Positions 34,235-49,666 of a stretch of 49,666 nucleotides of DNA are shown here, in pieces (position 1 is the stretch's first letter; each line of letters opens with the position of its first letter). A model generated the notes under the pieces. The model was not told where the DNA came from. It worked only from the letters and a program-made list of their open reading frames with translations, and searched no databases. Source of the DNA: an uncultured Actinomycetes bacterium. Lineage in GTDB: Bacteria; Actinomycetota; Actinomycetes; S36-B12. The stretch covers positions 1-49,666 of the forward strand of contig CAIKZY010000033.1 in the NCBI GenBank assembly GCA_903832025.1, written 5' to 3'. A program made the translations under genes and the position numbers.

Positions 34235-34279
34235 TGGTGGGTCGCCCGGGGCTCGAACCCGGAACCTACGGATTAAAAG
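34235..34279 (-). other. 3' half of tRNA-Lys(UUU), candidate att (integration) remnant
   Basis: Minus strand CTTTTAA-TCCGT-AGGTT-CCGGG-TTCGAGC-CCCGG-GCGACCC-A-CCA (anticodon loop to CCA); adjacent 5' half does not fold as tRNA. Confidence 0.82.
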
Positions 34280-34391: not shown

Positions 34392-34667
34392 ACATATTGG
34401 TTGCATTCGGTTCGCGTGGAAACCCGCCTTGCAAACGGAAAGTAATCCCAAACGGCTGCAGACGGATCGTGCGTATTGTCTCGCGCAACTTCGTCAATTG
34501 CGAGGAGTCAAGGCGTCGCATGGCACCTCAAGGATCCTGCTCCACGTGGCCGTTACTCAAAGTGCCAACCGTGACCTGCAGTGTTAATAGACTGGCGCGA
34601 GTTTGGACGGCTCAGAGGCATACCTCCTCACCCATCCGAACCGATCACGGATCAGGGGGATATTCGA

Positions 34668-36962
34668 ATGTTGAAGAAGTTCGTGAGTATCGAAAACCTG
34701 GGGCTTCTGCACGATTCTGGTAATAGCCCAACTTTCAAGAAGACCACCCTCATATTCGCCGAGAATGGTCGCGGCAAGTCCACTCTCTGTTCCTTGCTTC
34801 GATCGCTCGAATTGAACGACACGACTGAGCTGAAGAAGCGCCAAACGGTAGATCGCTCAGGAAACCCAGCCGCCCATATCGTGTTTGGCACTGGTGCCAA
34901 CGTCAGCCTCCTTCAGAACGGTGTGTGGGACCACCCTCGCCCGAATATCCGCGTCTTCGATACTGCGTTTGTACGCGCCAATGTCCACGCTGGCCCTGGT
35001 GTTCAGGCGGAGAATCGACGGAGCCTTCTCCAATTTGCTCTTGGTGACACGGCAGTCGAGGCAGCGCTGGCAGAGGTTGCAGCCAACGGGCTTGCGCGAG
35101 ATATCCGCGAACGAATCCGTCAACACGAAGCCGCGCTCTCGTCACGGCATGTAGGAATAACGCTCGACGCATTCATTGCGCTGCCGACATTCACCGACAT
35201 CGCGGGCCTGCTTCGAGAAGTCGATGCCAAGATCCGTGCTACGGAATCTGCCGCAGCAATCTTGAGGCGATCGTCACCGGAGGAGATCGCTTTACCCACA
35301 TGGGACCTCTCAGCCCTTTTCGGCCTTTTTTCACGCGATATCGAAACAGTCAGCGCATCCGCTCAGGCTCTAACCCAAGCGCACCTCACGAGAATCGGCT
35401 TGCCGAATGCGGAGGGTTGGATCCGAGAGGGCCAGGAGTTCGAGAAGGAAGCCTTGTGCCCATACTGCGGTCAGGACATCGAGCACTCAGATCTACTCGC
35501 GGCTTTCCGTGCGATCTTCACCGACGAGTACCGCCAACTCGTTGCCGACTTAGACGCGGCTGACATCTCGTATTTGGCCGCGACCTCCCCTCAGTCGCTC
35601 GAGGCGATTCAGGCGGGATTGCAGGTTCAGAACGCACGCATCTCCGCGTGGGCAGACGTCCTCGACCTTGAGCCAGTTACTGTTTCTGACGAAGACGTGA
35701 TCGCCGCTCTCTCGACACTTGACTTGACCATTCACCCGCTCATTGCGGCCAAGCGCGCAGCGCCCCTGGAAACCACGACCGTTGAAGACCTCGCTGAGGC
35801 ACGTGCGAAGGCGGAGGCCAATTGGGCCGCCGTTCGCTCAATCTTCGACAAAGTCAACGAGGAGCTGCGCGACCGCAAAACGAAGATTGCTGAATATCGG
35901 CTGAGCCTCACGGCAGCGGACATCACAGAACTCAAAGCCGAGCGGGCAGGCTTGCAACGAAGCGAATCCAGGCACCTCGCTGATGTCACTCTCGTAGTTG
36001 ACGAACTCCTGAGTGAGAGAGTCCAACTCAGAATTGCCGAGCGCGCTGCGGACGAAGCCCGCGAAGCCGTACGAGCCTTGATGAATGCGACGCTCACTCA
36101 ATATCAGAGCAAAATCAATTCGCTGCTCACCGCCTTCGGCGCAGAATTCCAGATCGAACAGATGCGCGCCAACTTCAGAGGCGAACCACCACAGTCTGAG
36201 TACCGTCTCAACCTGCGCAATACGTCAGTGCCTCTGCAACATGACGAAGGCCCCGATTTCGACTCGGCCCTGAGCGATGGCGACAAGCGGACCTTGGCGT
36301 TGGCCTTCTTCACGGCCTCGGTACTCAACGACCCGAATCTCAGTTCTCAGATTGTCGTGATCGACGACCCAATGAGCAGCTTGGATAGAAATCGCAGGGA
36401 ACATACTGCCAATCTTCTTTGCGAAATGAATGACAATTCACTGCAATTGATCGTGAGTGGGCACGACTCGCTCTTCCTCCGGCAAGTACAGCAGCAGGTC
36501 CGCCGGGCCGACTCGGCGGCCGAAATCGCCGAGATCGCGCTTCAACGTGGGGCCCATGGATACAGCAAGTGGGAACCTGTGTCTCTCGAAGAACTCTGTG
36601 AATCCGAGTGGCTTTCGAAGTATCGAGAACTCGAGACATACATCAAAGATGGAACCGGTTCACCGCGAACCGTCGCTACGCACATCCGTCCAGTGCTTGA
36701 GGGATATCTGCACAGGCGCTTCCCAAGGCACATCTCTGAAGGACTCATGCTGGGACAGGTACTCACATTGGTCCAGGAGGCAACGTCACCCAGCCCACTA
36801 GTCTTCGCCTCGGGTTCACTCGATGAACTTCGGCAAATCAACGCCTACGCGGGCAAGTTCCATCACGAGACCAATGCTGGCTTCGCTACCGCCCCGGTTG
36901 TAGACCAAGAGGTCCTCACCTACGCCCGGCGAACGATGGACGTCATCCACGGGAAACCCTAA
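34668..36962 (+). CDS. AAA_13-type zinc-hook ATPase, RloC/PrrC-like (candidate anticodon nuclease)
   Basis: Walker A FAENGRGKST, CPYCGQ zinc hook in coiled coil, SDGDKRTLALAFF signature, Walker B IVVIDDPMSSLDRNRR; C-terminal RPVLEGYL...KFHHETN. ATG 34668 with AGGGGG site. Confidence 0.75.
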   Translation: MLKKFVSIENLGLLHDSGNSPTFKKTTLIFAENGRGKSTLCSLLRSLELNDTTELKKRQTVDRSGNPAAHIVFGTGANVSLLQNGVWDHPRPNIRVFDTAFVRANVHAGPGVQAENRRSLLQFALGDTAVEAALAEVAANGLARDIRERIRQHEAALSSRHVGITLDAFIALPTFTDIAGLLREVDAKIRATESAAAILRRSSPEEIALPTWDLSALFGLFSRDIETVSASAQALTQAHLTRIGLPNAEGWIREGQEFEKEALCPYCGQDIEHSDLLAAFRAIFTDEYRQLVADLDAADISYLAATSPQSLEAIQAGLQVQNARISAWADVLDLEPVTVSDEDVIAALSTLDLTIHPLIAAKRAAPLETTTVEDLAEARAKAEANWAAVRSIFDKVNEELRDRKTKIAEYRLSLTAADITELKAERAGLQRSESRHLADVTLVVDELLSERVQLRIAERAADEAREAVRALMNATLTQYQSKINSLLTAFGAEFQIEQMRANFRGEPPQSEYRLNLRNTSVPLQHDEGPDFDSALSDGDKRTLALAFFTASVLNDPNLSSQIVVIDDPMSSLDRNRREHTANLLCEMNDNSLQLIVSGHDSLFLRQVQQQVRRADSAAEIAEIALQRGAHGYSKWEPVSLEELCESEWLSKYRELETYIKDGTGSPRTVATHIRPVLEGYLHRRFPRHISEGLMLGQVLTLVQEATSPSPLVFASGSLDELRQINAYAGKFHHETNAGFATAPVVDQEVLTYARRTMDVIHGKP

Positions 36963-37154: not shown

Positions 37155-38630
37155 CTACTCGGCGTCGGGTCCGACGAGTGCTTCGGCAATAGCCGCGAAC
37201 TCATTCAGCGCGGCCTGCAGTTCCTCGACGATCTCCTGAGCAATGACCTCGGGCGCCGGGAGGTCTTCAGCGTCTTCAAATGAGTTGTCCTTCAGCCAGA
37301 TGATGTCGAGGTTCGCCTTATCCCGCGCCATGATTTCGTCGTATGTGAAGGATTTGAATCTCTCGGACTCCACGCGTTTGTGTTGCTTGCCTGGCTTGTA
37401 GACATCCACGAAATTCTGAAGATGCTCTCGGCGCAATGGGTTCTGCTTCATCGTGAAGTGCTCATTCGTGCGGAAGTCATACACCCACAGAGTCCGCGTC
37501 CATGGTGCTTCGGCTGCAGGCTTCTTGTCGAAGAACAGCACATTTGCTTTCACGCCGCCGGCATAGAAGATTCCCGTCGGGAGTCGAAGAAGGGTGTGAA
37601 CATTGAACTCTCGAAGGAGTCGGCGCCGAAGAGTCTCCCCGGCTCCTCCTTCGAATAGAACGTTGTCCGGCAGGACAACTGCAGCTCTACCATTGATGTC
37701 CAGAATCGTCTTGATATGTTGTAAGAAGTTCAACTGTTTGTTGCTTGTTGTCACCCAGAAGTCGTCTCGGACAATCTCAAGATTGCTCCTCGACTCACGT
37801 CCATCGGCGCCGATCATCGTCACGCTGGACTTAGTGCCGAACGGTGGATTAGCAAGCACCACGGAATATCGAGTGCCAGGATCGGCCGTGAGCGCATCCT
37901 TCACATCAATCAGACTTTCTCCGTCGGCGGTGCCGATCCCGTGAAGCAGCATGTTCATCGACGCCAACCGGGCAGTTCCATCCACTAACTCAACACCGTG
38001 AACGAAGGTGTCCCGCAGGTGCGCGCGCTGATCGGGAGCAAGGTTCTCAACATCCCGCGTCGCGTGCTCATATGCAACGAGCAGGAATCCACCTGTCCCG
38101 CACGCCGGGTCACACACAGTGTCCTCAACACTCGGACGTACGACATCGACGATGGCGTGAATCAACGAGCGAGGAGTGAAGTACTGGCCAGCACCGGACT
38201 TGATGTCCTCAGCGCCCTTCTGCAGCAACTCCTCATATGCATCGCCTTTGAGATCCACTCCAGACGCAGACCAATTCTCCTTATCAATCAGATCAACGAT
38301 CAGCCGCTTAAGTTTCGCCGGGTCTTGAATTTTGTTCTGAGCCTTACGAAAGATGACCCCGAGGGTTCCCTTGGAACGCCCGAGGCTTTCAAGGATGTAG
38401 CGGTAGGTCTTCTCAAGTTCCTCCCCATCCGCATCCAGTAATCGCTGCCAAGAACAATCAGCGGGAACGATGTGCTCGGGATTCAGGGAACGTGTCTCAC
38501 GCTCATGCGCCATTTTCAAGAACAGGAGATACGTGAGTTGCTCGGTGTAATCGATAGTAGACACCCCGTCGTCACGAAGGACGTTGCAGTACGACCACAG
38601 TTTCTCCACAAGCCTTCTCGATTCATACAT
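37155..38630 (-). CDS. hsdM: Type I restriction-modification, DNA methylase subunit
   Basis: GQYFTPRSLIHAIVDVV, VCDPACGTGGFLL, VVLANPPFGTKS. Confidence 0.95.
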   Translation of the reverse strand: MYESRRLVEKLWSYCNVLRDDGVSTIDYTEQLTYLLFLKMAHERETRSLNPEHIVPADCSWQRLLDADGEELEKTYRYILESLGRSKGTLGVIFRKAQNKIQDPAKLKRLIVDLIDKENWSASGVDLKGDAYEELLQKGAEDIKSGAGQYFTPRSLIHAIVDVVRPSVEDTVCDPACGTGGFLLVAYEHATRDVENLAPDQRAHLRDTFVHGVELVDGTARLASMNMLLHGIGTADGESLIDVKDALTADPGTRYSVVLANPPFGTKSSVTMIGADGRESRSNLEIVRDDFWVTTSNKQLNFLQHIKTILDINGRAAVVLPDNVLFEGGAGETLRRRLLREFNVHTLLRLPTGIFYAGGVKANVLFFDKKPAAEAPWTRTLWVYDFRTNEHFTMKQNPLRREHLQNFVDVYKPGKQHKRVESERFKSFTYDEIMARDKANLDIIWLKDNSFEDAEDLPAPEVIAQEIVEELQAALNEFAAIAEALVGPDAE

Positions 38631-39858
38631 CGGAGTGTTCCGGTGCCTTCCTTGTCAACTCACCTGAAAATGCTGCCTGGAGGAGCGAGCGGCGAAGACC
38701 GTGCGATTTTGCTTCTGCCCGAGCAAGTTCATCCTCCATCCTCATTCGAAACTGTGTGATTGTCGATGTCTTGAATAGAAGCTGCTCGCGAAGTGTTTCC
38801 TGTGGTATCGGCACTTGAATGGCCTTGATCAAACCCAAATTCAAGTTCGGTTGCACCCCACCTGCAGCTAGTGTTCGAAGGGCGAAGTAGTTAACTCTAA
38901 GTACAAGATGCACCCAATCTTTGAGCGACGCGTATCGATCCAAGAAAGTTATAGCCGCGCATGCCTGATTGGTAGTGGCAGGGACACCGAGTTCAGCCAC
39001 AGTACCCCGCGTTTTCCCCTCGCCATACATTGCAACGAGCAAGGACCCCGCAGGGAGCATTTTGATCGAAGTTTCGCTCAATGCAGATTCGGTCACGTAT
39101 TGCTTCGGCAGAGTTACCAACCCCTGCCCAAGTTCACCACTAGTTATCCAAGGGATATTCCCACCTGTGTAATATCCCCGGTTCGACTTGAGTGGTGTAG
39201 CACCACTGGTCACGCGGCCAAGGTCCGCGATAGTCAACGAAGTTGACCCGGGATCTTTGGTAGCTAGTCTGACTGCAGACTCAATAGAGGAACGCTCAAG
39301 CGCTATCAATTGAATGCGCGTCCGGGCTAAGGCGCTGTCAGCGGAGTTCAGTCGGCTGACTTGGTCGTCGAGAATGCCGACAATGCGCAGCTGCTCATCG
39401 AGCGGCGGTAAAGGTACTTCCTGCTTGAGGATTCCATCAGCCTTGGCACGAGTATGACTTCCTGTTACCCCCGTGACCTCCGAAACTATCCACTCTCTAA
39501 AGCGAGGGCTGGATAGAAAATATTGGAGATACATCGATGACACGGCTGACTTGTCGCGCGCGCGCAGAACGAGCCACTCCGGCGACGCTATCCGCGGCAG
39601 ACCGCTCTCCCTCTCAGTCACTCGCCACACTCGATTGATTCTCGGGTTTATTTTGCACACAAGCACGTCATCGACTTCCACCGACAATTTGGCGCTTCCA
39701 ATATCCTGGCCAGCCGCGATCTCAGGGCATCCCTCAGCAAATGAAGGAACACTCCACAGCTCATATGTGACACCTGATTGAGGACTTATTGAATCCCGAA
39801 CTGAAACACCAAGTTCACTCAAAGGGACCAAATCCCAGCCTTCTTGCAACTCACTCAT
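38623..39858 (-). CDS. hsdS: Type I restriction-modification, specificity subunit
   Basis: Two TRD-like halves with PLPPLDEQLRIVGILDDQVSRLNSADS and VPIPQETLREQLLF conserved regions; overlaps hsdM by 8 bp. Confidence 0.92.
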   Translation of the reverse strand: MSELQEGWDLVPLSELGVSVRDSISPQSGVTYELWSVPSFAEGCPEIAAGQDIGSAKLSVEVDDVLVCKINPRINRVWRVTERESGLPRIASPEWLVLRARDKSAVSSMYLQYFLSSPRFREWIVSEVTGVTGSHTRAKADGILKQEVPLPPLDEQLRIVGILDDQVSRLNSADSALARTRIQLIALERSSIESAVRLATKDPGSTSLTIADLGRVTSGATPLKSNRGYYTGGNIPWITSGELGQGLVTLPKQYVTESALSETSIKMLPAGSLLVAMYGEGKTRGTVAELGVPATTNQACAAITFLDRYASLKDWVHLVLRVNYFALRTLAAGGVQPNLNLGLIKAIQVPIPQETLREQLLFKTSTITQFRMRMEDELARAEAKSHGLRRSLLQAAFSGELTRKAPEHSDV

Positions 39859-42620
39859 GCCGTAAGTCCTTGCTGTAGCCCGTCGAGCACCGACGCCACT
39901 CCCGCGCCGAGGTCACGGACGGCCCCGTCTGTGCCGCCGCGCTCAGTGAAGGGTGGAAGTTCGAGATCGGTGGTGTTGAAGTCACCCGATTGAATTACTA
40001 CGTCCTTGATGCGTTCGAGCCACCATATTTCGGTGTCTGTGAACTCGATTCCCGCTAGTGCCTGCTGTGCAAGCCAGTTACTCCAGCGTTGCTCGATGGT
40101 GCTGGCGTATGGGATGAGCTCGTTGTCGTAGCCAAGGGCGAACCGGATGAGTCCGACGAGGTCGGTCGTAGTATGGCGAGCTGAACGCTGCACTCTTCCT
40201 TCGTCGATGGCTTCGTACGCATGCCAGAGGCTGTCAACGGTCCACCTGTAGGGCGGGCGTTGGATGCGTTCGGCGAGGTCGCGCAGTTCGCCATAGGCAA
40301 CTTTCAGCACTTTGGGTTGGGAGTAGACGGTCTCGATCGCGGAGATTTCATCGCGATGTTCGTCGAGGAAAGCCCGCCACGAGGTGACCGTTTCCCGGGC
40401 CTTGTCTCGATCGACATGACCAGAGGCTTCTATGAGCGTGTCTTTGGAAGCTTCGTCGATGAGGAGGTCGTGCGCTGTTCTGAGTTCAAGGAGTCGCTGC
40501 CGTAAGGGCGCGTTACCAGCGATGGGTTCAATGGCCTTCTGGACGAGAGCGCTCATTGCTGCGGCCTCATCTGGCTTTCCGCTCTTCATCGGCGCGACAG
40601 CAATTGCTTTGGCGATCACGTCGGGGTCAGTGACCGTGATCAGGGAAGCGATCACTGCGGTGAACGGTTGGCCTGCGACTTGGTTAATCTCGGCGCGCTC
40701 GGCGGGGGTGAGCTGACGCTCCAGTCGTGCAAGTCGCGAAGCCAGCGTCGATGTTTCCTCGGAGGTGATCGTGAAAGTCGCTGCTTTGTCGAGAAGTTTC
40801 TTCAGGCTGATGATGCGATCGCGTTGCAGAGGTGGATCGACAAAGGCGTGCTCCGTGACACCTACTGCGTCAACGATGACAAACCTGTCCTTGGATAGCG
40901 CGTCAGGGGTCATCGTTTGAAAGGTGGCACTGTCGATAGTGCGAGCGCCACGCCCTTTCATCTGCTCGAAGTAGGAAGCCGACCGGACATCGCGCATGAA
41001 GAACACGCACTCAATTGGTTTTACGTCAGTACCGGTGGCGATCATGTCGACGGTGACAGCGAATCGAAGTGTCGAGGAGTTACGGAACTGCTGAAGCAGA
41101 GCCTTAGGATCTTTGGCGTTATAGGTGATCTTGGCTGCGAAATCGTTGCCTTTGCCGAAGACCTCCTTGATCTGAGTGACGATCTCCTCGGCGTGGTTAT
41201 CGTCCTTGGCAAATACGAGGGTCTTTGGAACAACTGACCGGCCGGGAAATATTTCAGTAAACAGTCGGTCCTTGAACGCGGTCAGCACGGTGCGGATCTG
41301 GTCTTTGCTCATCACTTTGCGATCAAGTTCGCTGGAGCCGTAAAGCACATCTTCGTCGAGAGCTTCATATCGCTGCCGGCGGGTGCGCTTATCCATCACC
41401 GGGACCACGATGCCCGCCTCAATAGTCGAGCCACCCTCAGTAATCTCAGTTTTGATGCGGTAGATATCGAAATCTACGTTCACGCCATCGGCTACAGATT
41501 CCGTGTAGGTGTATTCGGCGACAAGGTTCTGATTGAAGAAGGCGAACGTCTGCTTCATCGGGGTAGCCGTCAATCCGACGACATGAGCATCGAAGTACTC
41601 GATCACCCCCCTCCACAATCCATAAATGGATCGGTGGCATTCATCAACGATCACCAGGTCGAAAGCCTCAGGTGGCAGCAAAGGGTTGTACTGAATTTCC
41701 ACAGGTGAATCCGGTGTGAATTCATCGATGTTTGGGTCTTCCGTGTCCGGAACCTCCTGACCTTTCAATACTGACCAGACGCGCTGGATAGTGGAGATAA
41801 CGACCTTGCTCGACCCAAGAGTGCCTGCTGAGGTGAGCTTGTCCACGTTATACAAATCGGTGAATTTCCGGCCATCATCCGGGGTGGTCCAGTCCCTGAA
41901 CTCGCGCAGTGTTTGGTCAGCCAAATTGTTGCGATCAACGAGAAACAGCACGCGGTTCACTCCACCGAATTTCAGGAGTCGGTAGCACTCGGCCACAGCC
42001 ATGCGGGTTTTCCCAGCACCCGTGGCCATCTGCACGAGCGAACGCAGCTTGCCACTCGCCATTGAGGCTTCAACTGCCTTCACGGATCGCTCCGATGCTG
42101 GGCGAAGGTCATAGTCATCCAGCGGTGGCATTCGACGAACCTTGGCACGCCACGTTGCCGCTTCAGGATCCGTTTCCGCATCACGAATGAAACGAGCAAG
42201 AGTTTCCGGTCGAGGGAATGCGAAGACCCGCCGCGATGCCGAGTCAGGGTCAAAGAGGTTCGTGAAGACAGTCTCTGAACCACTTGCCTCAAACAGAAAC
42301 GGAAGTCTTCCTTCGACGAGAACTGCTCCCAAGCGCATCTGCGGGGGAAGTCCTTCGGCGTATCGAGAGGTTTGCCACTGCACGCCCGTCAGTGGAGTTC
42401 CCTCAGGTTTGGCTTCGATGACTCCGACGACGCGCCGTTTGACGTACAAGAGATAGTCCGCCCGACCGGCGTCCCCGAGCGTGACTTCTCGAACGGCGAC
42501 GCCCTCGTGATTCACTAGGTCCACGGCGTCCTGGTTGCAGACGAACCAGCCGGACTCTTCAAGCTGTCGATCAATCGTCAGTCGGGCAGACGCCTCCGGC
42601 GTCAATCCCCCAGGCGTCAT
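39855..42620 (-). CDS. hsdR: Type I restriction-modification, restriction/translocase subunit
   Basis: Nuclease motif GRADYLLYVKRRVVGVIEAKPEG, helicase MATGAGKTRMAV, VIVDECHRSIYGLWRGV. Confidence 0.95.
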   Translation of the reverse strand: MTPGGLTPEASARLTIDRQLEESGWFVCNQDAVDLVNHEGVAVREVTLGDAGRADYLLYVKRRVVGVIEAKPEGTPLTGVQWQTSRYAEGLPPQMRLGAVLVEGRLPFLFEASGSETVFTNLFDPDSASRRVFAFPRPETLARFIRDAETDPEAATWRAKVRRMPPLDDYDLRPASERSVKAVEASMASGKLRSLVQMATGAGKTRMAVAECYRLLKFGGVNRVLFLVDRNNLADQTLREFRDWTTPDDGRKFTDLYNVDKLTSAGTLGSSKVVISTIQRVWSVLKGQEVPDTEDPNIDEFTPDSPVEIQYNPLLPPEAFDLVIVDECHRSIYGLWRGVIEYFDAHVVGLTATPMKQTFAFFNQNLVAEYTYTESVADGVNVDFDIYRIKTEITEGGSTIEAGIVVPVMDKRTRRQRYEALDEDVLYGSSELDRKVMSKDQIRTVLTAFKDRLFTEIFPGRSVVPKTLVFAKDDNHAEEIVTQIKEVFGKGNDFAAKITYNAKDPKALLQQFRNSSTLRFAVTVDMIATGTDVKPIECVFFMRDVRSASYFEQMKGRGARTIDSATFQTMTPDALSKDRFVIVDAVGVTEHAFVDPPLQRDRIISLKKLLDKAATFTITSEETSTLASRLARLERQLTPAERAEINQVAGQPFTAVIASLITVTDPDVIAKAIAVAPMKSGKPDEAAAMSALVQKAIEPIAGNAPLRQRLLELRTAHDLLIDEASKDTLIEASGHVDRDKARETVTSWRAFLDEHRDEISAIETVYSQPKVLKVAYGELRDLAERIQRPPYRWTVDSLWHAYEAIDEGRVQRSARHTTTDLVGLIRFALGYDNELIPYASTIEQRWSNWLAQQALAGIEFTDTEIWWLERIKDVVIQSGDFNTTDLELPPFTERGGTDGAVRDLGAGVASVLDGLQQGLTA

Positions 42621-43499: not shown

Positions 43500-44282
43500 T
43501 TGAAGTCCATGAATCACCCACGACCTAAGCGCACAAAATGCGTGTTCTGCGGCGGAACGCGAATGAGTAAAGAGCACGTATACCCAAGATGGCTTCGTAC
43601 AAACTTTGGTGAAGTTGAGAGTGTCACGACACTAATGCAAGTAGCGGATGGCCCCATCAAGCGAGGTGCCCCTGAAGTTCCGTTTGATGCCACCGTTCAG
43701 TCCGTGTGTCAAGTTTGCAACAACGGGTGGATGTCGCGCTTAGAGCTCGATGTTCAGCCGCTGGTAACTTCGATGCTCCGCATGGTGGAACTCAAACTCG
43801 CAATTCACGAGCGGCGCTCGTTAGCGGCATGGATATTCAAGACGGTTCTCATGCTGCAGGAACAAGTTCGCGCTGAAGTACCGCTAATTCCTCAATCGCA
43901 TTACTCGCAACTTTTCATGCAACACGAGCCGCCAAGCGCCGCAAGAATATGGCTATGTTCGTTGGATGAACCGCTTTCGGCCGACCTCGTAGTTGTCCGA
44001 AGTTTCGGCCAAAGATTGATGTATTCCGGTGAGAGTTTCCGCGGAATGGAACAGGGTGTCCTGTTTTACGGCTATTCCATTTCGCTGGGTCCGCTTATGA
44101 CCTGCATACTCGGGAACACCCAAGGCTCATTTGTGCCGAATCGGGCCATGGCTCTAATCGGTGAGCCTATGGCCTCGCTGTGGCCACTCGCCGAGTCGAA
44201 GGATCTTGTGTGGCCGCCGAAATCCACTGTCAGCAAGTTGGGTGGCTTCAATGGTGTACATAGCCTGATGTTCATGCAATGA
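43500..44282 (+). CDS. HNH-like zinc-finger protein, function unknown
   Basis: CVFCGGTRMSKEHVYPRWL...CQVCNNGWMSRLE: paired CxxC with EHV..P and C..CN.gW, as in HNH endonuclease-like proteins. Confidence 0.6.
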   Translation: MKSMNHPRPKRTKCVFCGGTRMSKEHVYPRWLRTNFGEVESVTTLMQVADGPIKRGAPEVPFDATVQSVCQVCNNGWMSRLELDVQPLVTSMLRMVELKLAIHERRSLAAWIFKTVLMLQEQVRAEVPLIPQSHYSQLFMQHEPPSAARIWLCSLDEPLSADLVVVRSFGQRLMYSGESFRGMEQGVLFYGYSISLGPLMTCILGNTQGSFVPNRAMALIGEPMASLWPLAESKDLVWPPKSTVSKLGGFNGVHSLMFMQ

Positions 44283-44532: not shown

Positions 44533-47500
44533 TTGGAATCCGGATTCTCCGGCGTCGTCGTGAGTACGCATGCGAAGGTCACGACGATCGCACACACTGC
44601 CGCGGGGATGGGCCAGGTTTGGTACCGGGTAACCGGGCAGGTTGGGGTGGTCAGTGTTCAGGTCGCTTACCGATCTGGGATCTCGACCGCGAGCGTTCGT
44701 CGGGTGCGGTTTGTCGGTGCGGGTGGGACCGCTGATCTGTTGGGGTTCCGGCCAGGTGAGCTCGTGATCACGGAGGCTGACCTTGCGTTGATCGAGCGGT
44801 CCTTCAGTGGTGACCATCTTTCGCATGGGGTGAAGACGCAAAGGTCGAAGCTTGCTCGGGTTCCTGCCGGGCCGATCCGTGATGTTGTCGTCGCCGCACT
44901 TGCCCGCGCGGGCATGGAGCCCGAGCAGGTCTTCACTTCGCGGGACGCGTGCAACTGGTGGCAGGCAATCGACCGGGCCGGTGAACGCAATCGGTCGGTG
45001 TCGTTCCTCTCAGCAGCCGGGGCGCTTAGGGTTTTGGCCCGGGCCGGAGCGGAGGTCGCAGCGGACGAGTTGTATGCAGTCTTGGGCGAGCACGTTCGTT
45101 CGGTTGCAGCGGGCCCGGTGGATGCGCGTCGTCGCCGAGACGCGGTCACTTCGCTGCTGTCCTCGGACGATTTCCTGGCAACCGCCTGCAACGCCGATCT
45201 GGGCGAACAGCTCTGGACGGCGGCCGGGGCCGCCGCGGGCAAGCATGACCCGGTTGGCAATGCAGGCTATGAGGTGACGTTGACGCTGCCGAAGTCGATC
45301 TCGCTGTTTGCCATTTCCGGGGACACTGCAGATGCGGAAGCGTGGTTTGACGTGATGGAAGCCGGAGCGACTCGAGCGCTGGAGGCACTCATGGCTGAAG
45401 CGGGCTTCTGCTCGACAGGTCACCGCGGCGATGGCGAAGACGTAAACATCATGCCCGCAGATGGATGGGCCGGGTTCATCGCGACGGAGATCTCCTCTCG
45501 GGCGGGAGACCCACACTTGCACGTGCACTGCACCTTGCCCAACGTCTTGGTCGGTCGCGATGGGCTGGTGCGGACAATGGCCGATGGCGGACGCGAGCTG
45601 ATCGTGAACGCTTCGCGGTTCGCCGCGTGGGGTCAGGCATTCGTGATCGACGAAGCCAAGCAGCGAGGGCTCATTGACGGAGCCTGGTTCGATCCGGTCT
45701 CGTGGCAGTGGCAGGTCGGTGGATTCAGTGACGACACCATCACGGCATTCAGTCGCGGGCGCCAAGGCGTGCTGGCAGAACTTGACGAATCCGAGGATGA
45801 GCAGGCGACCACCGCGCGGTCCAGATCGAAGCGCGATCGCGCAGCCAAGTCCCGAGTGACCGCAGCGAAAGCTAGCGAGCAGCCGTCATGGACGCAGATG
45901 TGCGCGACGATCGCCGCCCGCGCGGCAGGACTCGGCCTGGACATCGAAGCTGAGCGCGCTGGCAACGGAATGGAGTTCACACAACCTGCGCAGTGGGATG
46001 ACGCCACCTGGGTCGCATGCGTACTGCAAGTCGCATGCGAGCATGACTCAACTGCGTCCTTGGCGAAGATCCGTGCCCTGGTCGACCTGGCCGGAGCCGA
46101 ACTACCAGCAGAAGAGCGGCTGCGGATCACGCGCATGGTTCTGGATCAGGGATTCGTCCGCGGCCACGAATCACGAGACCTGGGCATGAAGACTGGCGGG
46201 CAAAGGTGGATCTCTGGCCAGGCCCTCGCGGCAGAACAGTGGCTGCTCGACACCTTCGAACAGCAGTGTGTAGTCCCGGCTCCCAAAGATTTCTCCAGTC
46301 GGACCGTCACAGGATTACGTGCGACTTCGTCCTCAAATGGGTGGCTGCTCAGCACGGAGCAGGCCCACGCCGTCTCCGCAATCGTTGACGGCCTTGCACC
46401 CATCACGCTGATCTCAGGCGTCGCTGGGTCCGGTAAGACCACGGTTCTCAAGGCCGCACGCATCGCGCTGTCGTCGACCCACTCACGGATGCTCGTTGCA
46501 TCAACGGCGACGCTGGCGGCATCCACAGCCGGACACGAATCTGGAGCCAGCTGGTCAAACTTGGCTGCCCTGCGACGCGACATTGAAGTGGGCAAGCCGC
46601 CTCGCGCACGAGTGATCGTCATCGACGAAGCGTCCATGGCCGACGTCGTCTCGGTTGCCCGCGTCGCGCGCTGGTGCATCGAGAACAACAAGCGGCTGGT
46701 GCTACAAGGCGATCCGGCCCAACTTGGTGCCGTCGCTGCGGGTGATGCGTTCAGTGTGTTGTGCCAGCGGTTCCCCGACCAGGTCGTCCACTTGACGACG
46801 AACCAGCGGCAGCGCACGGACGACGGGCAAGTCATCGCCGCCGCGCTGCATACAGGCGATATCGATGCAGCCTGGGCAAGGCTTACCGCAACTGGCTCGG
46901 TCGTTGTCGCTCGGCACCGAGAGCACAAGCTCGATCTGGTCGCTGATCTGGTCGTCGAGCAGGCTGGTGTACACGGTGCAGATTCAGTCACGTGTGATGC
47001 GGTCACCAATGCCGAAGTGGGCGAACTCAACACGCGCATCCACGACAAGTTGATTGCATCCGGTCAGATCGATCCTGCGACCGTACTCACATATCGGAAC
47101 GCCTCTGGCGATACGAAGATCGGGGCTGGGACTGCTCTGCGGGTTACAAAGCCGACACCCGGCAAGGACAGCGGCCGTCTGGTGCGTGGTGATCGAGTCA
47201 CTGTTGTGGATACCGGACACGATCGTGTCCGTCTGCGATTCGATGATGGTCGCGAGCAGTCCATGACTCCGCGGAGGCTGCTCGCGCATTTCGACTATGG
47301 CTACGCCGGAACCACCCACAAGGTGCAAGGCCAGACCAGTGCCGTACACATCGGATCACTGGACCGCAACAAGAACCGCTCCAGTCTCTACGTCACCGCC
47401 ACACGCGGACGCGATCGGACGATCCTGGTCGCCGATGCCCGCGACTGGCTAAAGCAAGCAGAGATGGCCCAAGCCCTCAACTGGAGCACGGGTCAACTAG

Positions 47501-47640
47501 ATGACGAAGTCCTCGAACGAGTTCAGGCGCATCTCACAGGCAGGACCGAGTCGATCGACTCACCTGGTCAGGCCCTCACTCCGCTGCGTATGGGGATTGT
47601 CCAGCCCATCTCTAGACCGGGGTTCGGGCTGGCTGGATGA
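44533..47640 (+). CDS. MobF (TraA/TrwC-type) conjugative relaxase-helicase
   Basis: TrwC relaxase motifs LPKSISLFA and DPHLHVHCTLPN, then helicase ISGVAGSGKTTVLKAA, VIDEASMADV, YAGTTHKVQGQT; exact start uncertain. Confidence 0.88.
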   Translation: MESGFSGVVVSTHAKVTTIAHTAAGMGQVWYRVTGQVGVVSVQVAYRSGISTASVRRVRFVGAGGTADLLGFRPGELVITEADLALIERSFSGDHLSHGVKTQRSKLARVPAGPIRDVVVAALARAGMEPEQVFTSRDACNWWQAIDRAGERNRSVSFLSAAGALRVLARAGAEVAADELYAVLGEHVRSVAAGPVDARRRRDAVTSLLSSDDFLATACNADLGEQLWTAAGAAAGKHDPVGNAGYEVTLTLPKSISLFAISGDTADAEAWFDVMEAGATRALEALMAEAGFCSTGHRGDGEDVNIMPADGWAGFIATEISSRAGDPHLHVHCTLPNVLVGRDGLVRTMADGGRELIVNASRFAAWGQAFVIDEAKQRGLIDGAWFDPVSWQWQVGGFSDDTITAFSRGRQGVLAELDESEDEQATTARSRSKRDRAAKSRVTAAKASEQPSWTQMCATIAARAAGLGLDIEAERAGNGMEFTQPAQWDDATWVACVLQVACEHDSTASLAKIRALVDLAGAELPAEERLRITRMVLDQGFVRGHESRDLGMKTGGQRWISGQALAAEQWLLDTFEQQCVVPAPKDFSSRTVTGLRATSSSNGWLLSTEQAHAVSAIVDGLAPITLISGVAGSGKTTVLKAARIALSSTHSRMLVASTATLAASTAGHESGASWSNLAALRRDIEVGKPPRARVIVIDEASMADVVSVARVARWCIENNKRLVLQGDPAQLGAVAAGDAFSVLCQRFPDQVVHLTTNQRQRTDDGQVIAAALHTGDIDAAWARLTATGSVVVARHREHKLDLVADLVVEQAGVHGADSVTCDAVTNAEVGELNTRIHDKLIASGQIDPATVLTYRNASGDTKIGAGTALRVTKPTPGKDSGRLVRGDRVTVVDTGHDRVRLRFDDGREQSMTPRRLLAHFDYGYAGTTHKVQGQTSAVHIGSLDRNKNRSSLYVTATRGRDRTILVADARDWLKQAEMAQALNWSTGQLDDEVLERVQAHLTGRTESIDSPGQALTPLRMGIVQPISRPGFGLAG

Positions 47641-47787: not shown

Positions 47788-48486
47788 CTATCCATGGAGC
47801 ATCAACATGTGGCGGGCGCCCACCTGGAATTCATAGGGGACGGCGACGACCTCGGTTGTGATGCCGCACTCGTTGTGAAGTCTGGTTCGAAGGTTTGACA
47901 GGAACTCGACTGGCTCTCCGGTTCCTTGGAGTACGAGCGGGAAGACCCGGACTTCTTCGGCTACCCGGCACAGTTCCACGAGCGCTGCGAGGTGCCATTG
48001 CTCGTCTAGCTGCGTGGCCCACGTAAACAGCAGGTGCGAGCACAACGCAAGATCGAACGCTGCATTCGCGAAGGGCAGTTCGGGAAGGGCTGCGGCGATG
48101 TATCGGTCGGGATAGGTGTGGTGGTGCTCCTGAAACGTGACCAGGGCCGCTCGGCGTATCTCGGCACGACGTTGTGGAGTTTGATACCAGTCGAAGACGA
48201 ACCGATCGGAGTTGGCATCAATCATCGAGTTGCCACTGGGTACTCCTGCTTTCGCACGATCGGCAAGGGCTTCTGGGGCGAGGGCATAGACCGGGTCCAC
48301 GGCAACGGCATCCGTACCTCGTGCATGCGCTTCGGCCACGAAACTCGAAGCACCGGCAGAGCAGTCCAGAATGCGGGCAGGGAGCGCCTGCGCGTCTAGG
48401 TCAAAGAATGCGACGTATTCCGCGAATGATCTTGAGCTCACCAGGATGTCGTCGGTCTTATTCGAATCACTTCGAGATGTATCCAT
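47788..48486 (-). CDS. Class I SAM-dependent methyltransferase-like protein
   Basis: RILDCSAGASSFVAEAHARGTDAVAVDP, LPFANAAFDLALCSHLLF; start MDTSRSD at 48486 preceded by AAGGGA site. Confidence 0.78.
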   Translation of the reverse strand: MDTSRSDSNKTDDILVSSRSFAEYVAFFDLDAQALPARILDCSAGASSFVAEAHARGTDAVAVDPVYALAPEALADRAKAGVPSGNSMIDANSDRFVFDWYQTPQRRAEIRRAALVTFQEHHHTYPDRYIAAALPELPFANAAFDLALCSHLLFTWATQLDEQWHLAALVELCRVAEEVRVFPLVLQGTGEPVEFLSNLRTRLHNECGITTEVVAVPYEFQVGARHMLMLHG

Positions 48487-48502
48487 TTGGAGTCCCTTCG
48501 TT

Positions 48503-49543
48503 CTAGTAGACAGTTCGCATTGCTTCACGGACTTCTGTCAGGGTGTTTTCTGCCACATGATTTGCGACTTCGTTTCCTCGCTTGAGGACTTCATGCACGA
48601 GACCTTCGTGGACTGCCAACTGTTGTCGCCGCTTCCTCAATGGGCCCAGGAATTCGTTGACGGCCATCGCAGTCACATTTTTCAGTTCGCTACTTCCGCC
48701 ATCACCGACGTCGTCGGCGACCTGCGTCGGCTCCAGTCCCAGGCATAACGCCGCCGTTGACAACAGTGCCGAAACACCGGGCCTTCTTTCGGGATCGAAC
48801 GTGATGCGCCTTTCTTGATCCGTTTGAGTCTGACGAATTACGGCAACCGTTTCATCAGCGGTCATCGACAGAGCGATGGTGTTTCCGTAGCTCTTCGACA
48901 TCTTGCGTCCATCGAGCCCCGGGACCTCTGGTGATGAAGTGATCAGTGCATCTGGGATCGGGAAGACCTCCCCGTATCGTGCGTTGAATCGTCGGGCGAT
49001 CACCCTCGTCATCTCCACGTGGGGAAGATTGTCTTTCCCAACAGGAACTAGGTTGCCCTTGCAGAACAAGATGTCAGCCGCCTGGTGGACCGGATAAGTC
49101 AGTAGCAGCCCACTCAACGCACGACCGGACGCGGCGAGTTCTGCTTTCACCGTGGGATTGCGATGCAACTCCGCTTCAGTGACCAGACTGAGGAACGGCA
49201 GCATCAACTGGTTCAGCGCCGGCACAGACGAGTGCGTGAAGATCGTCGTCTGATCCAGGTCCATGCCCGCTGCTAGATAGTCGAGGACAGCCCCATACAC
49301 ATTCTCGCGAACGTGAGCGGTGGTGTCTCGGTCCGTGATGACTTGGTAGTCCGCCAGCACGAGGAAGGTTTCGACTCCGAGCTGCTGTAGTCGCAGCCGC
49401 TCCCGGATGCTTCCGAAGTAATGCCCCAGGTGCAGCGGACCGGTCGGCCGCTCACCGGTGAGCACTCGGAAGTGTTCAGGGTGTTGGGACGCAGCTGCCG
49501 CGACTGCATCCGAACGCAGCGCGGTTGTGGCGAAGGATTCCAT
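48503..49543 (-). CDS. trpS: Tryptophanyl-tRNA synthetase (candidate auxiliary/inducible)
   Basis: GERPTGPLHLGHYFGSI (HIGH-like), GRKMSKSYGNTI (KMSKS), HQAADILFCKGNLVPVGKDNLPHVEMTR. Confidence 0.93.
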   Translation of the reverse strand: MESFATTALRSDAVAAAASQHPEHFRVLTGERPTGPLHLGHYFGSIRERLRLQQLGVETFLVLADYQVITDRDTTAHVRENVYGAVLDYLAAGMDLDQTTIFTHSSVPALNQLMLPFLSLVTEAELHRNPTVKAELAASGRALSGLLLTYPVHQAADILFCKGNLVPVGKDNLPHVEMTRVIARRFNARYGEVFPIPDALITSSPEVPGLDGRKMSKSYGNTIALSMTADETVAVIRQTQTDQERRITFDPERRPGVSALLSTAALCLGLEPTQVADDVGDGGSSELKNVTAMAVNEFLGPLRKRRQQLAVHEGLVHEVLKRGNEVANHVAENTLTEVREAMRTVY

Positions 49544-49588
49544 TCGTGTCTCCCCATCAATTGGGAGCTACACGGAGTTCTCGAGACG

Positions 49589-49617
49589 GTTCACGAGCTG
49601 CCGTGCAGCCCGTGAAC
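49589..49617 (-). terminator. Attenuator terminator hairpin (3:4 stem) upstream of trpS
   Basis: Plus strand GTTCACGAGCTGC-CGT-GCAGCCCGTGAAC (one mismatch). Confidence 0.75.
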
Positions 49618-49633
49618 ATGCTTCAACCGGCTG

Positions 49634-49666
49634 CTATCGCAGCCACCACCAAGCGGAACGGTTGAA
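49634..49666 (-). CDS. trp leader peptide, C-terminal part (...FNRSAWWWLR*)
   Basis: Minus strand TTC AAC CGT TCC GCT TGG TGG TGG CTG CGA TAG, three consecutive Trp codons followed by stop; start lies outside window. Confidence 0.8.
   Translation of the reverse strand, partial: FNRSAWWWLR

Follow-up and report, generated by a model that had tools for sequence, protein, structure and literature searches.

Auxiliary tryptophanyl-tRNA synthetase (TrpRS) genes are known chiefly from antibiotic-making streptomycetes, in whose chromosomes they serve for self-resistance or as a backup. Our literature search returned no account of such an enzyme being carried by mobile elements, which does not in itself prove absence. 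Among the systems described are the Streptomyces auxiliary TrpRS1 enzymes with a ribosome-mediated attenuator, e.g. in S. coelicolor, S. griseus (SGR_3809), S. avermitilis (trpS2), and S. lividans (trpL2-trpS), and the examples covered include indolmycin-resistant auxiliary enzymes (PMC6804068, PMC9437257). Comparable, too, is the mupirocin-resistant second synthetase IleRS2 (mupA type), which is plasmid-borne, inhibitor-insensitive, and horizontally acquired (PMC9437257).

The window analyzed here, a stretch of 49,666 nucleotides, comprises all of contig C33 from G000, an actinobacterial genome assembly of 2.2 Mb in 187 contigs (98% complete), and carries at its right end a trpS gene followed by a methyltransferase gene. 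Much of this locus is shared with Streptomyces TrpRS1, such as a divergent second TrpRS (Streptomyces plasmid members are 57-60% identical to the window enzyme) and a near-leaderless Trp-codon leader with hairpins (PMC8079986, PMC1262725). Unlike TrpRS1, the window gene belongs to an integrative mobilizable element inserted at tRNA-Lys, its host is an actinobacterium with a small genome, and a methyltransferase gene is predicted to be co-transcribed with it. The trpS genes on plasmids A/B of Microbacterium sp. No. 7 (TrpRS 82% identical, same leader) and on plasmids of Rhodococcus sp. DN22/YL-1 (72% identical, same layout) are similar; these copies have IS elements close by and, unlike the window, no methyltransferase. 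Compared with mupA-type IleRS2, synthetase and drug differ, and IleRS2 has neither a Trp attenuator nor a methyltransferase. On balance, we consider it fairly probable that the locus represents an inducible spare TrpRS, carried as cargo of a mobilizable element of ~19 kb, that would take over the charging of tRNA-Trp once an inhibitor blocks the resident enzyme.

The gene pair and the element at tRNA-Lys

The auxiliary trpS (48503-49543, minus strand) encodes 346 aa and was identified by a profile search against TIGR00233 (233 bits, cutoff 176.75). It is followed on the same strand by a gene for a class I SAM-dependent methyltransferase of 232 aa (47788-48486), whose reading frame opens at GTG 48528, while ATG 48486, preceded by GAAGGGA, is the likelier start. 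The 16-nt spacer in between (48487-48502, minus strand) contains this Shine-Dalgarno sequence, and both its length and the Shine-Dalgarno are identical in the related element of a second genome, G021. No terminator is apparent by eye in the spacer, hence a single trpS-methyltransferase transcript is expected. The initial annotation had placed the methyltransferase just after trpS on the same strand, under a common Trp attenuator and near a MobF relaxase. The first and the last of these points were borne out (16 nt from the trpS stop to the ATG; a TrwC match of 78.5 bits against a cutoff of 25, in a gene convergent with the methyltransferase), and co-transcription under the attenuator gains support from the conserved spacer and from the leader and attenuator-type hairpins before trpS. 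An Rfam search of the window gave no match, and no tRNA genes were found in the window or beside trpS, hence no cognate tRNA-Trp there.

The window from 34.24 to 49.67 kb forms one side of the integrative mobilizable element, while the other end is located on contig C67. The attR site (34236-34279, minus strand), with chromosome to its left and element to its right, is a 44-nt 3' fragment of tRNA-Lys(TTT), and the same core recurs at the tRNA-Lys(TTT) of the other end (C67 1955-2029) as well as at the two ends of the element in G021. C67 continues from this tRNA with a tyrosine recombinase (89% identical to the G021 recombinase, itself a PF00589 match), a GNAT-type gene paired with a small one, and the trpS leader. 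Its last seven bases overlap the first seven of the window's reverse strand, and joining the two contigs by this overlap gives the element its size of ~19 kb. Within the window, attR is followed by an AAA ATPase (34581-36962, plus strand), a candidate defence protein (PADLOC PDC-S06, E=2.8e-57; PrrC weak, E=1.2e-7), and type I restriction-modification genes on the minus strand, i.e. hsdM (37155-38630, PADLOC E=1.9e-188, 84% DNA identity to the G021 element), hsdS (38623-39858, E=5.6e-35), and hsdR (39855-42620, E=4.7e-38, 86% DNA identity to the G021 element). A possible HNH-like protein (43500-44282, plus strand) shows a CxxC...EHVYPRWL motif by eye and has no Pfam, NCBIfam, or PADLOC match. 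The MobF-type relaxase/helicase (44533-47640, plus strand) also matches AAA_30 (106 bits) and is 74% identical in amino acids to its counterpart in G021. As a side observation, the PrrC-like ATPase is situated beside type I restriction genes on an element that integrates at tRNA-Lys, which is possibly a coincidence; the PrrC anticodon nuclease of E. coli cleaves tRNA-Lys.

The window from 37.2 to 49.7 kb is collinear, in reverse, with contig C2 of G021, with a DNA identity of 88% for the trpS-methyltransferase pair and 78% for MobF over most of its length. Beyond the collinear block, a 90% match to G021 follows at the window boundary of 34.2-34.4 kb. The G021 block is bounded on one side by tRNA-Lys(TTT), next to which a tyrosine recombinase (PF00589) is encoded, and on the other by a second tRNA-Lys 3' fragment ~32 kb away. 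Upstream of trpS, the G021 element has ~7 kb of additional genes, and further candidate defence genes were noted between its hsdM and attR, encoding one SIR2-like protein (PDC-S65) as well as PDC-S11 proteins (L043 13730-15748, 16800-17843). The GNAT gene and its small partner have a toxin-antitoxin-like layout (L126 4517-5397; L042 9351-10231), and the GNAT gene is nearly identical in both elements (dS 0.05) while the other genes are far more diverged, pointing to a recent exchange.

Related relaxases with 58-61% identity are encoded on contig C11 of G021 and, in two copies, in genome G018. The proximity of tRNA-His to the former (L133 3416) and of tRNA-Gly to one of the latter (L136 1802) suggests a family of mobilizable elements with varied integration sites. 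None of these three related loci has trpS or the methyltransferase nearby, and the auxiliary trpS was found in just two of 85 family genomes; the pair is thus best regarded as cargo. The idea that it is mobile cargo and not a housekeeping locus, put forward in the initial annotation, is supported by these relatives, the tRNA-Lys att sites, the integrase, and the collinear copy in G021. The 3' duplication of tRNA-Lys, the recombinase adjoining the tRNA, the MobF relaxase, and the restriction and defence cargo are all typical of integrative and mobilizable elements, from which this one differs in its trpS-methyltransferase cargo. No T4SS genes were identified. The element is predicted to be transferable. 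The chromosomal side of the window (155-33879) appears, from translations only, to hold catabolic genes, e.g. for two glutamine synthetase-like proteins, P450s, alcohol dehydrogenases, an amino-acid ABC transporter, and extradiol-type ring cleavage.

A tryptophan leader with attenuator-type hairpins

The 3' part of a leader peptide, MNFNRSAWWWLR ending in a stop codon, occupies 49634-49666 on the minus strand with three Trp codons at 49643-49651. The peptide is near-leaderless; its ATG is found on contig C67, as is a candidate -10 box (TAGCAT) a few bases ahead of it. The assembly of G000 broke exactly inside the attenuator hairpin TTCAACC...GGTTGAA (end of C67, window 49666), which is why the leader start, promoter, and integrase are missing from the window. 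An identical leader in G021 and in the Microbacterium plasmid copies of trpS, together with a diverged counterpart in Rhodococcus (VFVIRQAWWRLLSQPV, likewise ending in a stop codon), argues for more than a chance reading frame. Diverged WW leaders also precede the trpS relatives in Streptomyces, Embleya, and Nonomuraea, while no comparable corroborated leader was found at the family housekeeping trpS and the examined Coriobacteriia trpS loci, where scattered WW reading frames look like chance.

Folding predicts a 1:2 hairpin (TTCAACC...GGCTGC/GCAGCC...GGTTGAA, 49621-49666, minus strand) and a 3:4 terminator-type hairpin (GTTCACGGGCTGC/GCAGCTCGTGAAC, 49589-49617, minus strand). The GCAGCC of the former can alternatively pair with a GGCTGC of the 3:4 stem (2:3 pairing, 6 bp here and 9 bp in Rhodococcus), so that mutually exclusive 1:2, 2:3, and 3:4 pairings are present. 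The Rhodococcus copy shows compensatory changes in these pairings, including the 3:4 stem. A further hairpin predicted by folding (CGTGT-CTCCC/GGGAG-ACACG, 49545-49574, minus strand) pairs with the Shine-Dalgarno of trpS, and folding gives a comparable one for the G021, Microbacterium, and Rhodococcus copies. The 3:4 stem is not followed by a T-run, i.e. the U-tract of an intrinsic terminator, which lowers the case for a classical transcription attenuator. The trpS leader of S. lividans (trpL2) is likewise reported to have no U-tract (PMC8079986), and attenuators before Streptomyces trpS have been predicted before (PMC1262725). Simple minimum free energy folding with the footprint of a stalled ribosome removed restored the 2:3 pairing solely in the Microbacterium leader, hence the switching step itself is a prediction.

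Induction by uncharged tRNA-Trp would proceed as follows. Inhibition of the resident TrpRS or a shortage of Trp-tRNA might stall the ribosome on the three Trp codons of the leader, leaving segment 2 available for pairing with segment 3. This would block the 3:4 hairpin and let transcription, and possibly translation, continue into trpS and the methyltransferase gene.

The methyltransferase and its link to trpS

The methyltransferase matches Methyltransf_11 (PF08241) weakly but above the cutoff (21.9 bits, cutoff 21.2), as do 18 of the 20 members of its family. The family shares 17 invariant columns, including G45, D64, L134-P135, H151, E171, R174, R180, and P183, and has conserved SAM-binding and motif IV-like regions. 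The enzyme is therefore a class I methyltransferase from a coherent but unnamed family, judging by these profiles. Comparison with G021 indicates purifying selection (dN/dS 0.207). Members are thinly spread over Actinomycetota, Bacillota, Pseudomonadota, Campylobacterota, cyanobacteria, and a haloarchaeon, and no relatives were found in phages and viral contigs, so there is no link to trpS there.

Any connection of this gene with tryptophan would be tentative, as its link to trpS was found in two related elements and there are close homologues elsewhere with no trpS beside them. There is about an even chance that it is an unrelated passenger on the trpS promoter with a substrate unconnected to tryptophan. 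Most of the family occurs without trpS, including the nearest homologues outside the elements (G028 and JAUSQD010000054, 71-73% identity). Its patchy distribution comes with no constant neighbour on the plasmids of Rhodococcus, Acinetobacter, Sulfuricurvum, Niallia, Haloarcula, Priestia, and Synechocystis, and linkage to trpS was seen solely in G000 and G021, with no recurrence in independent lineages. The initial annotation had suggested surveying trpS neighbours for the same methyltransferase, its counter-case being that the two are never conserved together. Our survey confirmed the arrangement in G000 and G021, but not on the Microbacterium, Rhodococcus, and Streptomyces plasmids or in Coriobacteriia, so that co-conservation holds weakly. 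Against a mere passenger, however, gene order and spacer are kept in both elements, and dS between them is lower for the methyltransferase (0.37) and trpS (0.48) than for hsdR (0.75) and mobF (1.1), which suggests that the two genes moved together. On the Rhodococcus plasmids, the gene behind trpS belongs to the DinB family and is separated from it by ~190 bp (L039 9176-9664), i.e. the mobile trpS is trailed by different cargo in different hosts.

A role in which the methyltransferase inactivates a tryptophan-like inhibitor, or modifies a tryptophan metabolite or tRNA-Trp, would turn the pair into a two-component cassette for target bypass and drug modification. We regard this as rather doubtful. 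It would fit the Trp-sensing leader shared by the operon, the weak profile matches to small-molecule methyltransferases (UbiE/BioC/YcgJ-like) within the class I profile, and the position of some relatives near GNAT, MarR/TetR, or drug-export genes. However, the trpS-linked cases number two, direct evidence is absent, and the AlphaFold model, built from a two-sequence alignment, reached a pLDDT of 39.5. Modification of a small molecule would be the most plausible activity of the co-transcribed enzyme, and a joint contribution with trpS is possible, as judged from one pair of related elements.

Origin and predicted role of the spare TrpRS

The window TrpRS is only ~33% identical to each housekeeping TrpRS of the same genus and family, and G021 possesses both kinds, the housekeeping trpS as well as one that matches the window trpS at 94% (dN/dS 0.064). 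In our tree, the window enzyme groups with those of G021 and of the Microbacterium and Rhodococcus plasmids (support 100/98), followed outward by Coriobacteriia and then Streptomyces-type enzymes, while the housekeeping group is far off. The phylogenetic check called for by the initial annotation thus shows no clustering with the vertically inherited housekeeping trpS, and by its sequence the enzyme is foreign to the lineage and not the housekeeping TrpRS of its host. Among the Microbacterium plasmid genes, an IS21 element starts 9 nt past the intact copy, and plasmid B carries a second, truncated trpS with the same leader near an IS256 transposase (L038 3895-4596), 88% identical to the window TrpRS over residues 1-234.

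At the position of His43 in Bacillus stearothermophilus TrpRS, where a change to Asn confers indolmycin resistance (PMC4899734), the window enzyme and all clade members have Gln and all family housekeeping enzymes have His. This substitution differs from the Asn assayed in the literature. Moreover, Gln43 also occurs in Coriobacteriia, where this enzyme type gives one strong match per genome, and need not have evolved for resistance. The change from His to Gln may therefore be read as a signature of inhibitor resistance and not as proof. Being an auxiliary enzyme that carries Gln here, the spare TrpRS is predicted to keep charging tRNA-Trp despite tryptophan-analogue inhibitors, e.g. indolmycin. 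Its insensitivity is suggested by the analogy to auxiliary TrpRS enzymes already known and to the mobile IleRS that resists mupirocin.

It is unlikely that the spare enzyme mainly serves fitness under tryptophan starvation or stress, as a feedback backup or through a TrpRS II-like interaction with nitric oxide synthase (NOS), rather than antibiotic tolerance. Such a role would agree with an attenuator that senses charged tRNA-Trp and no antibiotic, with the lack of any visible TrpRS-inhibitor biosynthetic cluster on the element, and with the closest solved structures (1YI8, 2A4M), which belong to Deinococcus radiodurans TrpRS II, an auxiliary enzyme with Gln in the matching ADxQ motif that is reported to work with NOS (PMC9437257). 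Yet unlike in Deinococcus, no NOS partner gene was seen on the element, and the repeated carriage on plasmids and islands, the divergence of the enzyme, and Gln43 recall auxiliary synthetases known to tolerate inhibitors. Quite unlikely, too, is the most far-reaching version of the preferred reading, a mobile cassette of two genes under a single Trp-sensing attenuator, which would induce both an inhibitor-insensitive TrpRS and an antibiotic-inactivating methyltransferase, with mobilizable elements that target tRNA genes as its vehicles.

The contigs of G000 yielded no housekeeping trpS, leaving the auxiliary copy as the sole trpS detected in a nearly complete genome. In G002 from the same genus, trpS comes after a CBS-domain (hemolysin C-like) gene, and contig C148 of G000 keeps this gene order and ends inside the CBS-domain gene, ~120 to 180 bp before the expected trpS start. 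The housekeeping gene was thus probably lost to an assembly gap, and the auxiliary trpS as housekeeping gene of the host was downgraded as a candidate because the housekeeping flank is cut off at the contig end. Replacement of the housekeeping gene by the mobile TrpRS, now essential under attenuator feedback and no resistance gene, is very unlikely even with a single trpS in G000 and single strong matches in Coriobacteriia, given this gap and the coexistence of both trpS genes with a near-identical element in G021.

The spare TrpRS, together with its own tRNA-sensing switch, is now found on an integrative mobilizable element and on Microbacterium and Rhodococcus plasmids, and a trait best known from Streptomyces appears as mobile cargo. 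By analogy, the window trpS looks like the tryptophan counterpart of the mobile mupirocin-resistant IleRS. If true, this would imply environmental selection by TrpRS inhibitors beyond their producers and would bear on indolmycin or chuangxinmycin as drug leads.
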